Below are positions 22,576 through 35,033 of a stretch of DNA of 48,661 bases, piece after piece; the stretch's first letter is position 1, and each line of letters opens with the position of its first letter. The translations under genes and the position numbers were made by a program. This DNA comes from Lachnospiraceae bacterium. Lineage in GTDB: Bacteria; Bacillota; Clostridia; Lachnospirales; Lachnospiraceae. Under the pieces are notes generated by a model, which saw only the letters and a list, made by a program, of their open reading frames with translations, did no database searches and was not told the origin of the DNA. Where the stretch lies: contig SVFE01000014.1 of the NCBI GenBank assembly GCA_015057055.1, forward strand, positions 1 to 48,661. The letters run 5' to 3'.

Positions 22576-22634
22576 CGGACAGGGTGGTCTCTGATAACGA
22601 GCGGAAACAGAATGAAAACAGAAGCGGTAGAACG

Positions 22635-22699
22635 GGGAAGAAGAACAGGGAAAAAGAACAGGGAAAAAGAACAGAGAAAAAGAACAAGGAAAAAGAGCA
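22635..22699 (+). repeat. Five tandem 13-base repeats
   Basis: Five adjacent copies of a 13-base purine-rich unit, consensus GGGAAAAAGAACA. The copies start at 22635, 22648, 22661, 22674 and 22687. Copies 2 and 3 are identical, and the others differ at one to three bases. Because 13 is not a multiple of three, the repeat changes reading frame from copy to copy, so it is not a protein repeat. It ends 2 bases before the likely start of the acetyltransferase gene and may supply its ribosome site. Confidence 0.9.
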
Positions 22700-22701
22700 G
22701 G

Positions 22702-23784
22702 ATGGAAAAGATGGAAAAAGAAAATTTTGATTTAGAGCGGGTAATCATTCGCCCTATGAATCCGGGGGAAGAAAAAACAATCGCCAAAATCGGCCGAAGT
22801 GCCTTTGGGTTTTTCGAAGCACTGTTTGTATCGGTACCAAGGCATGCTATGGTGGCAGATTACGAAGGTAACATTGCCGGCGGTATTCTATATAAACCCA
22901 TGAACCTTCCCGGCGGGAAGAAAGTATTGTATATGGACATCGGTTTTGTTCATCCGGATTATCAGGGGATGGGCGTAGGGAAAAAACTTTATTCCGAAAC
23001 CTTCCGGATGCTCTGGGAGACGGATTGTGATTATATGACAGCGCTGGTAAAGGATGATAATATCGGCTCTTACAAGCCGCTTTTGCAAAACGGATACCGC
23101 AGGGTAAGCTGCAAGGAAGTTTTGAAAAAGTTTGGTTTTCTGGGATTTTTTAAGCAGTATCTTGGGACGGTGTGGTTCCTGGCCGGCGGTATGGATTTTT
23201 ATATGGCTGAGCGGAAAAAGGAAAAACAGGAGGAGAAGCGGTTCCCGATTTTGTGTTATTTTTTGTCGAACCTTTTGTTGCTCCTTCCCATGTTTGGAAT
23301 GTTATTGCTGGAAAATAATAACCCCGAGAAGGTTTGTTTTATGTTTTTGGCCTTTGCTACCATTCTTTTTGCTTTGTTTGCAACCCGTTCTTTGGGGGCT
23401 CTGATAGCGAAAAGAAAGTGGAAATTCAGGTTCAATAACGGTGGTGCACTTTTGACCCTTCTTCTCGGATTGGGGAACAGTCTTTTTCCCATGAATGGAA
23501 ACTGGTATTTGGAAGATTATGAAAACAGCGAAAAAGACAGAAAAAGTATGGCATGTACGGAACTGGTAAGGTGGTTTGTTTTTCTTTTTCTTCCGTTAGC
23601 GCAGCTGGGCGGAACCGTTTACGGAAAAAGTCTTGCGCAGTTGGCACAGGTATTTATGGTATATAGTCTGATTCCGATTTACCCCTTCGAGCATTTGGGT
23701 GCGGGACGTATTTACCGTTACAATAAATGGCTTTGGCTTATTACCACGGTGATAACCATAGCAGTTTTATATTTTTATTCATAG
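22702..23784 (+). CDS. GNAT acetyltransferase fused to a membrane domain
   Basis: A 360-residue protein. Residues 10-150 are a GNAT acetyltransferase domain, with the acetyl-CoA loop HPDYQGMGVGKKLY and a C-terminal NGYRRV. Residues 175-360 form about five membrane helices. The membrane part resembles a site-2-protease (M50) scaffold without catalytic residues: RSLGALIAKRKWKF falls where HExxH should be, and IPIYPFEHLGAGRIYRYNK where the second motif should be. That reading is inference. The open frame starts at 22612, but its first 30 residues are translated tandem repeat, so I prefer the ATG at 22702 (22711 is also possible). The next gene, hemZ, follows after 15 bases. Confidence 0.78.
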   Translation: MEKMEKENFDLERVIIRPMNPGEEKTIAKIGRSAFGFFEALFVSVPRHAMVADYEGNIAGGILYKPMNLPGGKKVLYMDIGFVHPDYQGMGVGKKLYSETFRMLWETDCDYMTALVKDDNIGSYKPLLQNGYRRVSCKEVLKKFGFLGFFKQYLGTVWFLAGGMDFYMAERKKEKQEEKRFPILCYFLSNLLLLLPMFGMLLLENNNPEKVCFMFLAFATILFALFATRSLGALIAKRKWKFRFNNGGALLTLLLGLGNSLFPMNGNWYLEDYENSEKDRKSMACTELVRWFVFLFLPLAQLGGTVYGKSLAQLAQVFMVYSLIPIYPFEHLGAGRIYRYNKWLWLITTVITIAVLYFYS

Positions 23785-23799
23785 ACAGCGGAGGAAACG

Positions 23800-25317
23800 A
23801 TGATTACATTAAGCATTAGTAAGCCGGAATACCAATATGATATTTATACTCTGGTGAAATCCTTTTGGCCGGGGGAGGAGATTTTACAAAATCCGGAGCC
23901 TTCTATGGAAAAAAAGGATTTCCTTTCCGTGAATATAAATGGGAGCGAAGTGGACATCTGCATCGTTTCGGGAGAAATTTTTGCTGCAGATGCAGAGCAG
24001 AAAGCCTTTTGCGGAGTCGAATCCGGAAAAGAGTGGGGCGAAGATGGTGAAAGAGAAACGACAGATGTCATCAATAAAAAGTCTCTCAAGAAAGTTTTTT
24101 ATGATTTTTTATGTGAATATACCGGAAAGACGCTTCCCTGGGGGAATCTTACGGGAATTCGTCCCACGAAGCTGATTCTTGGCATGATGAAGGAAGAGGC
24201 CGCGGCTACCGGCGAGGAAATCGGCAGTGATAAGGTGGCGCTTTCCGTAAAGGAAAAGCTCTTCGATATGCACCGGGTAGGGGAGGAAAAGGCTTCCCTT
24301 GGCATGGAGATTGCCCTTCGGGAAGAAGGCATCATGCAGATGCTCTCCGGGACGGATGGTTACAGCATTTACATTGGCATTCCCTTTTGCCCTTCGACCT
24401 GTCTGTATTGTTCCTTTACCTCCAATCCGATTTTTAAGTGGAAGGATAAAATGCCGGAGTACCTTGCCTGCCTGAAAAAGGAACTGGCAGTTACCATGGA
24501 GCTGATGGGAGGAAAAATGCCGGATACCGTATATATCGGCGGCGGCACCCCCACAACGCTTTCGGCTAAGGAACTGGAGATTTTGCTGGGAGACATTGCG
24601 GAGCAGATTGATTTTTCCGCGGTGAAAGAGTTTACGGTGGAAGCCGGCCGGGCCGACAGTATCACTATGGATAAGTTAAAGGTGATGCGGGAGTTTCCGG
24701 TGAGCCGTATTTCGGTAAATCCCCAGACCATGAAGGAGGAAACCCTTCGGGTTATCGGGCGAAACCATACGGTGGAGGATGTCAAACGTGCGTATGCCAT
24801 GGCCAGGGAGGCCGGTTTTGACAATATCAATATGGATACGATTTTGGGACTTCCCGGCGAAACGGTGGAGGATGTGACCCATACGTTTTCGGAAATTACA
24901 AAGCTGGCGCCGGAAAGCTTGACGGTACATTCCTTGGCGATTAAGCGGGCCTCAAAGTTAAAGCAGTGGTTGGAAACCCATGAAGGGTATGAGTGCATGG
25001 AACATGAAAAAGCCATGGAAATCGCGGCATTGGCGGCAAAGAACATGGGGATGGAGCCGTATTATTTGTACCGGCAAAAAAATATGGCCGGCAATTTGGA
25101 AAATACCGGTTATGCAAAGCCCGGGAAATACGGACTATACAACATTCTCATCATGGAAGAGGTGCAGTCCATCGTTGCACTGGGAGCCGGCAGCGTCAGC
25201 AAGCGGGTATTTGGAGACGGTCGGATTGAACGATGCGACAATGTAAAAGACGTGGCACTCTACATGGAGAAACTGGATGAGATGCTGGAGCGGAAGCGGG
25301 CGCTGTTTGGAGTTTAG
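23800..25317 (+). CDS. hemZ: HemZ-type radical SAM protein (coproporphyrinogen dehydrogenase-like)
   Basis: A 505-residue radical SAM enzyme. The iron-sulfur motif is CPSTCLYC (C197, C201, C204), preceded by YIGIPF and followed by YIGGGTPTTLS. The 190-residue N-terminal extension is characteristic of HemZ rather than HemN or HemW. HemZ is named for oxygen-independent coproporphyrinogen oxidation, but its enzymatic role is less firmly established than that of HemN. No other heme-synthesis genes are in the window. It is the last main gene before the repeat region. Confidence 0.9.
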   Translation: MITLSISKPEYQYDIYTLVKSFWPGEEILQNPEPSMEKKDFLSVNINGSEVDICIVSGEIFAADAEQKAFCGVESGKEWGEDGERETTDVINKKSLKKVFYDFLCEYTGKTLPWGNLTGIRPTKLILGMMKEEAAATGEEIGSDKVALSVKEKLFDMHRVGEEKASLGMEIALREEGIMQMLSGTDGYSIYIGIPFCPSTCLYCSFTSNPIFKWKDKMPEYLACLKKELAVTMELMGGKMPDTVYIGGGTPTTLSAKELEILLGDIAEQIDFSAVKEFTVEAGRADSITMDKLKVMREFPVSRISVNPQTMKEETLRVIGRNHTVEDVKRAYAMAREAGFDNINMDTILGLPGETVEDVTHTFSEITKLAPESLTVHSLAIKRASKLKQWLETHEGYECMEHEKAMEIAALAAKNMGMEPYYLYRQKNMAGNLENTGYAKPGKYGLYNILIMEEVQSIVALGAGSVSKRVFGDGRIERCDNVKDVALYMEKLDEMLERKRALFGV

Positions 25318-25371: not shown

Positions 25372-25548
25372 ATGAACGAAATGGTTCCAATCGGTTATGC
25401 AAAGACAAGTATGGGAAGATTTCTGGCAGGGGCAATCGCCGTCGGGGCGCTATTGCTTACGGTTCTCTTTGTCAAAAGCGGAGCGGATTTCATAGTCCCG
25501 TTACCGGTTGATTCAGAGGTGGTATTACCTACTGGCACTTCAGTGTGA
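25372..25548 (+). CDS. Small single-pass membrane peptide
   Basis: A 58-residue open frame that I do not recognise. It has a good ribosome site (AAAGGAAA, 7 bases before the ATG) and one clear membrane helix at about residues 17-34 (FLAGAIAVGALLLTVLFV) after a short N-terminal segment. The C-terminal 18 residues include VPLPVDSEVVLPTGTSV. The last eight codons run into the first box of the repeat array, so the present C-terminus may be a by-product of array insertion. Its 54-base distance from hemZ is compatible with co-transcription. Confidence 0.5.
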   Translation: MNEMVPIGYAKTSMGRFLAGAIAVGALLLTVLFVKSGADFIVPLPVDSEVVLPTGTSV

Positions 25549-25753
25549 GTTGCGGGTGGGTAAAATATAATCGTTTTTGCGATAGTTTACCTACTGAGGA
25601 AACATGAAAATTGCGGTAATAGGTAAAATCTTGCATTTGGCGATTGCTTTTTACCTGCTGTGAGAGATGATTTGCGTGTGAATGGGTAAAGTCTTCCGGA
25701 AGTGTGCGGAGATTACCTATTGTTGGAGCCGGCTTGAAGTGCCGGTTGGTAAA
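25525..25753 (+). repeat. Array of eight alternating TAGGTAAA boxes (hairpin array, 63-base period)
   Basis: Eight copies of a TAGGTAAA-like box occur in strictly alternating orientation. TTACCT lies at 25525, 25587, 25651 and 25713. The reverse form RGGTAAA (the last copy TGGTAAA) lies at 25558, 25621, 25684 and 25747, spaced exactly 63 bases each time. Neighbouring boxes can pair, giving hairpins at 25558-25592, 25621-25656 and 25684-25718. The inner stems differ in sequence but still pair, for example TCTTCCG with CGGAGA in the third. Segments between hairpins are 27-28 bases and share a 5' RYTG and mostly an internal TTGCG. No protein frame is preserved. The function is unknown. Confidence 0.8.
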
Positions 25754-25797
25754 GCGGGGGAAAGTACAAAACATTTCAGCCTGTTACAGGAAATTGG

Positions 25798-25857
25798 AAA
25801 ACACTTCGCATTTATGGGGCATGATAGTTCCTCATAAGTGTGAGGTGTTTTTGTTTT
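25798..25857 (+). terminator. Long wobble-paired hairpin, likely terminator
   Basis: Bases around 25798-25819 pair with 25830-25852 over roughly 20 positions, with about four G-T pairs and no true mismatch. The stem is followed by a T-rich run. It would end transcripts coming from hemZ or through the box array. The gene-free stretch 25549-26053 holds only the array, this hairpin, the inverted repeat at 25854-25900 and the leader of the next gene. Confidence 0.65.
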
Positions 25858-25900
25858 AACGAAATGAGACATTAGCCCCATGCCTCTCCTGTCGTTAAAA
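25854..25900. other. Inverted repeat, 9-base arms
   Basis: TTTTAACGA (25854-25862) is the exact reverse complement of TCGTTAAAA (25892-25900), with 29 bases between. It follows the long hairpin directly. It could be a regulator site or part of a larger transcript structure. Confidence 0.5.
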
Positions 25901-26053: not shown

Positions 26054-26905
26054 ATGGGAAGAGAAGAAAATGTAAAAGTATTTCAGGATACGGAGCGGCT
26101 GGTAAAGGAGCGCAAAGCCCTCTCGGAGGCGGTGAAGTATTCCACGAAGAATCAGATTTTGATTCCGGAATATATGCAGGTGGCGGATATGATGCCGGAC
26201 CGGGGCGAACGGAGCCGTGTTGACGGCCAGGCGGGGGAAATTGTGGTTTCCAAGAAGCGTACCTATGAAGCGGCAGCAGCGTATAAGGGAAAAAAGGTGT
26301 GCGTGCACAATTTTGCATCGGCCACTAACCCGGGAGGCGGCGTTACAAAGGGGAGCTCCGCCCAAGAAGAATGCCTTTGCCGGTGCTCGACCTTATATTT
26401 CAACTTGAATACGTCGGATATGTGGGGCGGTTTTTATGCTCCCCACAGAAGTGCACAGGATCCGGTTCATAACGACGATTGCATCTATACGCCGGAGGTC
26501 GTGGTTTTTAAGACGGATACCGATTGCCCGAAACTGATGCCGGAAGAAGAGTGGTACAAGGTAAATGTAGTTACCTGCGCCGCGCCGAATTTAAGACTGA
26601 TGCCGAGCAACGGGATGAACAGCGGAGACGGAATGACGAGAGCAAAATTATCGGAGGAAGAGTTGTATCACTTGCATGTGAAGCGGTTGTCCAGAATTAT
26701 GGAAGTGGCGGTGGCCGGCGGCAATGAGGTGATGATTCTCGGAGCCTTTGGTTGCGGCGCTTTTGAAAATAATCCGGAGGTTGTGGCTAAGGCATCCAAG
26801 GCGGTGGCAGAAAAATATCGCAGCTGTTTTGCCGTGATTGAGTTTGCGATATATTGTTCCCCGCGGGATGAGCAAAATTATAAGATTTTCAGCAGAGTCA
26901 TCTGA
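26054..26905 (+). CDS. PARG-like macrodomain protein (TIGR02452 type)
   Basis: A 283-residue protein of the microbial poly(ADP-ribose) glycohydrolase-like family. The catalytic signature GGG-x7-QEE is exact: G94-G96 after NP, then Q104-E105-E106, with the two glutamates that cleave the ribosyl bond. The N-terminal helical domain begins RLVKERKALSEAVKYST, and the C-terminal half has VMILGAFGCGAFENNP, typical of macrodomain loops. The likely role is removal of ADP-ribose from proteins or nucleic acids, or processing of free ADP-ribose derivatives. AGGAGGG lies before the ATG. No ADP-ribosyltransferase is nearby. Two overlapping TATGAT boxes at 25933-25943 may mark a promoter, but the -35 is poor. 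Confidence 0.88.
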   Translation: MGREENVKVFQDTERLVKERKALSEAVKYSTKNQILIPEYMQVADMMPDRGERSRVDGQAGEIVVSKKRTYEAAAAYKGKKVCVHNFASATNPGGGVTKGSSAQEECLCRCSTLYFNLNTSDMWGGFYAPHRSAQDPVHNDDCIYTPEVVVFKTDTDCPKLMPEEEWYKVNVVTCAAPNLRLMPSNGMNSGDGMTRAKLSEEELYHLHVKRLSRIMEVAVAGGNEVMILGAFGCGAFENNPEVVAKASKAVAEKYRSCFAVIEFAIYCSPRDEQNYKIFSRVI

Positions 26906-34965: not shown

Positions 34966-35033
34966 TGCTGCTTCGGATGAAAGACTGCTTTGGATGAAAG
35001 ACTGTTTCGGATGAACGATTGCTTCAGATGAAC
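34966..35033 (+). repeat. Four tandem 17-base repeats with ATGA ladder
   Basis: Four adjacent 17-base units at 34966, 34983, 35000 and 35017, consensus GACTGCTTCGGATGAAA. Each unit contains ATGA. Because the period is 17, the ATG of one unit meets an in-frame TGA exactly at the ATGA of the next. This gives a chain of six-codon frames linked by stop-start overlaps, leading towards the ATG at 35062. The units lie between iorB and a small unknown gene. Confidence 0.9.

Follow-up and report, generated by a model that had tools for sequence, protein, structure and literature searches.

Alternating, regularly spaced boxes in a Lachnospiraceae genome, a probable member of a family of helically phased arrays linked to a nuclease-like gene

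The array and its surroundings

In the window, by which we mean the whole 48,661-nucleotide stretch of Lachnospiraceae DNA analysed here, eight copies of an 11-bp box with the consensus TTTACCYAYTG lie between 25524 and 25753 in strictly alternating orientation. The plus-strand boxes occupy 25524..25534 (ATTACCTACTG), 25586..25596 (TTTACCTACTG, a perfect consensus), 25650..25660 (TTTACCTGCTG) and 25712..25722 (ATTACCTATTG); the minus-strand boxes, given in their minus-strand reading, are found at 25554..25564 (TTTACCCACCC), 25617..25627 (TTTACCTATTA), 25680..25690 (TTTACCCATTC) and 25743..25753 (TTTACCAACCG). Together they form four box pairs, with successive steps of 30, 32, 31, 33, 30, 32 and 31 bp. 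Neighbouring boxes are about three helical turns apart, and hence on one face of the helix.

A first-pass annotation of this DNA had described eight alternating boxes with an exact 63-base period and three covarying hairpins. The eight boxes stand, with TTACC(T) at 25525, 25587, 25651 and 25713 and RGGTAAA-type boxes at 25558, 25621, 25684 and 25747, although the last of these reads TGGTAAA instead of RGGTAAA. The exact period belongs to one orientation only: the RGGTAAA-type starts are 63 bases apart three times, whereas the TTACC set is spaced 62, 64 and 62. The three GGTAAA...TTACC inverted pairs that had been read as hairpins are also present.

The array is situated between a radical-SAM gene (open reading frame 23800-25317), which we take to be hemZ, and a gene of the microbial PARG type (26054-26905). 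A terminator-like hairpin, separate from the array, stands just 3' of it at 25795..25853 (ends approximate), and a putative 58-codon open frame with a membrane-like stretch (25372..25548, plus strand) overlaps box 1 with its 3' end. Neither a match to this frame nor the PARG gene was found in any of 29 hemZ-homologue loci of relatives. A hisS homologue lies about 120 bp downstream of the hemZ homologue in one of the 29 (in genome G005) and about 1.2 kb off in two more, with none within the stretch examined in the rest. Because these loci differ in their downstream genes and are without PARG, we place the array and its neighbours in a variable stretch. Two short tandem repeats also occur in the window, a 13-bp unit (AGAACAGGGAAAA, 5.6 copies, 22629-22701) at the start of an open frame with a GNAT domain and a 17-bp unit (CTGCTTCGGATGAAAGA, 3.8 copies, 34968-35032) between open frames.

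A dispersed family in the same genome and in relatives

The window's own genome (G000; 2.23 Mb in 104 contigs) was scanned with the three-box pattern GGTAAAN{16,28}TTACCN{22,34}GGTAAA, the reversed pattern serving as control. It gave 29 matches (17 forward, 12 reverse) against none for the control, which puts the window array beyond chance. Seven of 34 other genomes of the genus had one to three matches, and two had one reversed-control match. Counting the window array, the genome has four, the other three holding 15 (contig C26), 8 (C52) and 19 (C55) boxes. A scan of 84,980 species returned 14 stretches, five of which, all in MAG records that bear the name Lachnospiraceae, were accepted as arrays; in the genomes of these five, G426 to G430, a looser three-box pattern yielded 3 to 73 matches, against 0 or 1 per strand for its reversed control. 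The annotation had suggested a miniature repeat family and had set the finding of no copies in relatives against its own proposal; with copies in five further MAGs that objection is answered, and the repeat-family option holds.

Open frames overlapping the examined arrays are short, the longest having 95 codons in the window's genome and 123 at locus L102. Two loci, L106 (2028-2446) and L111 (4237-4654), have a 420-bp segment in common that is 83% identical and comprises an array and a GC-rich tail, in different gene neighbourhoods. Within it the TACC cores agree at 31 of 32 positions, whole boxes at 79 of 88 and the sequence between boxes at 117 of 141; the comparison of cores with the rest gives a one-sided p of 0.03 for this single pair. 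The GC-rich tail itself looks like a further repeat. In G428, several TTTACC arrays (loci L172, L173, L174, L176, L179 and L180) are flanked by direct or inverted copies of another interspersed repeat, about 136 bp long, and mosaic repeat clusters result. At four loci (L096:8490-9011, L102:975-1992, L106:2683-3309 and window 22612-23784) a gene for a GNAT acetyltransferase is found close to an array; GNAT is a common domain, and it was the only one to recur among 19 array-neighbour proteins scanned.

Conservation of boxes and spacing

Conservation was assessed on 28 arrays with 273 boxes from six genomes, chained with allowed steps of 29-34. Positions 3-6 of the box (TACC) are nearly invariant, at 1.8-2.0 bits, the remaining box positions carry about 0.6-1.5 bits, and the interiors mostly 0.0-0.4 bits. 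With the arrays pre-chained at these steps, the two cores of a pair lie 33/34 bp apart in 64 cases; from one pair to the next the distance is 28-30 bp in 57 cases, and in 54 of these it is exactly 29 bp.

Selection on hairpins would make the variable box positions change together in partner boxes. Among 127 elements and 112 spacers no clear covariation of partner boxes was seen, agreement being about as with shuffled partners; positive z values rose no higher than 2.3 in elements (position 11; 0.7 once partners were shuffled within genomes) and 2.0 in spacers (position 8), and box position 1 runs against pairing, with z about -4. The interiors of 42 elements and 40 spacers, which are diverse, fold no better than shuffled ones (mean z of -0.11 each). 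As joint change is barely seen, hairpin selection is not supported. The covariation noticed in the first-pass annotation is thus a property of one locus that fails on 28 arrays from six genomes. Judged by sequence, what is conserved is the box and its spacing, not the hairpin.

Gene X and its place beside tuf

The array on contig C55 ends about 15 bp upstream of a gene of 257 amino acids, here called X, for which no Pfam or NCBIfam family was found. Homologues of X in G427, G428 and G429 (51, 50 and 72% identical; that of G428 has one in-frame TAG) are also preceded by an array of the same TTTACC box. All four loci adjoin tuf, with the array between tuf and X. Beyond tuf, fus follows in three of the four, the G428 contig holding the tuf end only. 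The spacers of these four arrays are dissimilar by eye. As to the other two TTTACC-array genomes, the only X of G426 goes with another box, and an X match was not found in G430. The window itself yielded neither an X gene nor a remnant of one to tblastn with 19 X proteins (E up to 1e-4, in a set that included it).

The C-terminal part of X resembles PD-(D/E)XK nucleases. The motifs RSKSE, DF and EH.G, and with them E152, D186 and E201, are invariant in 19 of 19 X proteins, and the usual lysine of E-x-K is unconserved in the alignment. A low-confidence structural model (mean pLDDT 55) has the order helix-strands-helix-strand, and weak fold matches were obtained to nucleases of the Holliday junction resolvase, Bax1 and XisH class, along with PHROG matches to resolvases and endonucleases. 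This nuclease domain is found elsewhere in AAA ATPase and helicase proteins, and all 19 X proteins of our alignment (A1) match a PADLOC model of PDC-S68 within it. The N-terminal part, for which no Pfam family was found, is the more variable, with a mean identity of 0.28 against 0.48 for the C-terminal part. This is as expected if the N-terminus reads the box; pairs of X with the same box were not clearly distinct at equal C-terminal identity.

Two X loci differ from this arrangement. At L324 (contig C32 of G424), X stands beside tuf, but the box is GCTTTCC and the period 74; given this case, the position of X beside tuf may be older than the box. At L210 (contig C79 of G000), a second X of the own genome, with an open frame of 345 codons, lies behind a 52-bp array whose word CACCGCC/GGCGGTG occurs in 31 copies.

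Arrays with other boxes at X loci

Where a genome has no TTTACC array, its X homologues, which within the own genus are mostly 34-41% identical, are often preceded by arrays of other boxes. Searching the order with the 19-sequence alignment A1 located X in 82 of 392 genomes, often several times in one; up to seven candidates were scored for each, and some genomes hold at least seven paralogues. We collected 137 X loci, made up of 29, 28 of 30 from the order survey (two repeats dropped) and 80 that were fetched. A tandem array was called where 60-bp self-identity was at least 0.75 at lags of 35-129, the upstream test needing at least 300 bp (n = 131). By this measure 71 of 131 X loci have an upstream array, against 5 of 164 same-size control windows taken elsewhere in genomes of the order (p = 2e-25), the other 60 having none at this threshold; raising the threshold to 0.85 leaves 59 of 131 and 4 of 164. 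Downstream arrays were found at 23 of 136 loci. In 49 of 72 upstream arrays, against 13% of column-permuted controls, some 7-mer occurs two or more times, as does its reverse complement, and the two usually alternate. One of the control windows with a tandem array, L028 (contig C84 of G018; period 54, 0.95 identity), comes from a genome without an X match and is possibly an orphan array.

In three genomes, of which two share a genus, a second family, with the box ACAGCG/CGCTGT, likewise has arrays at X and scattered ones. In G007 the X array is on C50 and scattered arrays are on C19, C39, C51 and C63; in G169 X is on C9 and scattered arrays are on C1, C4 and C6; in G423, the congener of G169, the X-linked array is on C13 and the scattered ones are on C2 and C7. 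G418 has an X-linked array of this box only, and G029 has matches on one contig, which is not one of its X contigs. No such arrays were found in any of 10 other genomes, nine of them without an X match, and the reversed controls were all 0.

The box follows X. With sharing defined as a common 5-mer of the box word at 45 loci, a box is shared by 23 of 77 X pairs that are at least 50% identical, 0 of 63 at 40-50%, 14 of 816 at 30-40% and 1 of 34 below 30%; that the first figure is not higher is partly because one 7-mer per array was compared.

Helical phasing of the periods

The periods of arrays upstream of X fall into separate classes, at 51-54, 60-64, 71-75, 83-85 and 94-95 bp. The values 35, 100 and 115 occur once each, and the ranges 55-59, 65-70, 76-82 and 86-93 are empty. 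Downstream periods, which are fewer and less clean, lie at 51-53, 62-64, 73-75, 85 and 94-96 bp, plus 35 and 39-44 bp, and these last two fit whole turns less well. Two downstream arrays, L199:1368-1572 and that of L203, have a period of 40-41 bp, near four turns.

There are 61 non-redundant upstream arrays, and for the 59 with periods of 45-100 bp the resultant R is 0.79 at 10.5 bp, with the best period at 10.3; random sets reach R of 0.45 at the 99.9th percentile. As a control for kinship, X was clustered at 50% identity, arrays being present in 24 of the 39 clusters. Over these 24 the best period is 10.5 bp with R of 0.86, and 0 of 2000 random sets did as well. Clustering at 45% identity leaves 13 clusters (p = 0.0025) and at 42% two, and the period classes are not fully independent, because X clusters are related to one another. 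Within a single X cluster, periods of 73-75 and 83-84 occur together, and in another 63-64 and 74, that is, in steps of one turn. Such steps of 10.5 bp are what protein binding on one face of B-form DNA predicts, and they would be unexpected of RNA.

Interpretation

We suggest that the window array belongs, as a scattered or "solo" copy, to a family of binding arrays, double-stranded and helically phased, that is linked to X, and we consider this reading likely. The phased protein-binding array that the first-pass annotation had listed among its options holds as the best inference, given a spacing kept across genomes with differing spacers and periods upstream of X near multiples of 10.5 bp. 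In sequence terms, there are the boxes and their spacing, an upstream array at about half of the X loci examined, periods that keep close to multiples of 10.5 bp, and scattered arrays that match the box of the X-linked array in the same genome. The best reading of the cognate partner of the boxes is X, which has an array of the same box directly upstream and which would presumably bind the boxes and might cleave DNA.

As a possible mechanism, we propose that the N-terminal part of X, or an accompanying protein, binds the boxes cooperatively as inverted pairs, and that the array before X would be its operator or loading site. The scattered arrays may have arisen by copying and been kept as platforms for X binding, having diverged everywhere but in what binding needs. 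Copying is suggested by the shared spacers within G428 and G007 and by the 420-bp segment of L106 and L111. As to what the system is for, our confidence is clearly lower than it is for the phased, X-linked reading; we lean towards a selfish or domesticated pair of repeat and nuclease, akin in logic to REP/BIME-RAYT though its enzyme is unrelated, over a purely regulatory role, and place defence or self-marking below both.

In the regulatory alternative, the phased boxes are only the operator of X and of the genes near scattered arrays, and X is neither mobile nor copying. We regard this as a quite possible, if not the favoured, account. Phasing is typical of cooperative operator binding, the array lies directly before X, and the order tuf-array-X is stable in four genomes despite the turnover of spacers. 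Against a merely regulatory X stand its invariant nuclease-like residues in 19 of 19 proteins, the scattered arrays with common spacers in G428 and G007, which were probably copied, and the 19 scanned proteins neighbouring arrays, in which nothing but the GNAT domain recurs.

It is improbable, to our mind, that the system serves defence or self-recognition, X cutting DNA that lacks, or that carries, arrays. The PDC-S68 matches and the occurrence of the X nuclease domain in AAA ATPase and helicase proteins would agree with such a role; however, the PDC-S68 match is confined to the shared C-terminal domain of much longer models, and Pfam recognised no gene of a defence system among the 19 array neighbours scanned.

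We think it unlikely that the arrays are a structured RNA, in which transcribed hairpins with a selected fold would act as a small RNA, an attenuator or a 3' UTR element. As plus-strand RNA, window positions 25500-25860, which include the separate terminator-like hairpin, do fold well (z of -7.4; 0 of 100 shuffles), and the interiors of the first and third window hairpins can pair. Yet Rfam gave three matches, all far below the gathering score and so none near threshold, and the covariation tests (with box position 1 against pairing), the folding of interiors and the 10.5-bp steps all argue the other way. This option of the annotation is accordingly not supported.

An origin as neutral tandem-repeat debris, with slippage and recombination maintaining its regularity, is similarly unlikely, if anything a shade more so. 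Some arrays are indeed homogenised tandem copies (C55, and C4 of G427), and other tandem repeats exist in these genomes (5 of 164 control windows). But the window units have little in common beyond boxes and spacing, the orthologous tuf-X arrays keep both over different spacers, the cores of the one L106/L111 pair are better preserved than the sequence between boxes, and neutral slippage gives no reason for periods to keep near multiples of 10.5 bp.

Lastly, we hold it very improbable that the arrays are of the REP/BIME kind and owe their mobility to a Y1 (RAYT) transposase. Like BIMEs as described in PMC2817692, they alternate in orientation, are regularly spaced, lie between genes and occur as scattered copies, but the boxes are not conserved hairpins and PF01797, found in 5 of 14 control genomes including E. 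coli, had 0 matches in G000, G427, G428, G429 and G430 and 1 in G426, all draft genomes.

Relation to known systems

REP/BIME-RAYT systems (REPtrons) are nonetheless the closest known kind. Two papers describe spaced, alternating units that are mostly extragenic and scattered, with the gene of a cognate enzyme beside some of them (PMC2817692, PMC3733652). Our arrays are alike in their regular, alternating, intergenic and scattered units and in the cognate gene beside some. They are unlike in that the transposase of the Y1/HUH (IS200/IS605) type was not found in five of the six array genomes, which are drafts, in that the candidate enzyme is PD-(D/E)XK-like and the period near whole helical turns, and in that the unit is a pair of sequence-conserved 11-bp boxes whose stem pairing, unlike that of REP/BIME palindromes, is not preserved. 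Membership among the REPtrons therefore fails on the enzyme (PF01797) and on the hairpin (covariation, interiors).

Compared with PD-(D/E)XK nucleases of the Holliday junction resolvase, Bax1 and XisH types, X has the invariant motifs given above and an unconserved E-x-K lysine, and we know of no such nuclease that is linked to a phased array. Phased operator or centromere arrays such as parC/ParR have repeated boxes on one face of the helix next to the gene for what presumably binds them, and the arrays before X are alike in this; they differ in that the orientation of their boxes alternates, many arrays are dispersed over the chromosome, and the boxes vary between X subfamilies. A CRISPR array was ruled out, as the 11-bp boxes alternate in orientation and the stretches between boxes are common to units in C26 and C55; no cassettes of the integron attC kind were seen in the arrays.

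We rate the system as new in kind. Among the titles and abstracts listed by a literature search, none dealt with these arrays or with X; its coverage was mostly without subscription papers, and a prior description is possible. On balance, and with less assurance than for the window array itself, we take the system to be an undescribed class of the Lachnospiraceae and their kin, in which a box-reading N-terminus and a PD-(D/E)XK-like nuclease would be joined to arrays of the protein's own inverted boxes at whole-turn spacing, with copies at further genomic sites. As part of the same reading, and held with the same measured preference, X subfamilies with their own boxes, paralogues among them, would form a natural series of matched protein-DNA specificities.

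If this is true, about a fifth of the sampled genomes of the order (82 of 392) carry an unnamed nuclease-like gene, many with phased boxes of its own, and some hold scattered copies of these boxes in addition. It would be a second solution, built on an unrelated enzyme, to the task of REP/BIME-RAYT systems. The 10.5-bp steps make cooperative binding on one face directly testable, and X paralogues with different boxes offer a data set for how a protein reads DNA. The arrays may also explain repeats that break assemblies: many of the 14 accepted arrays of G428 lie at or near contig ends.
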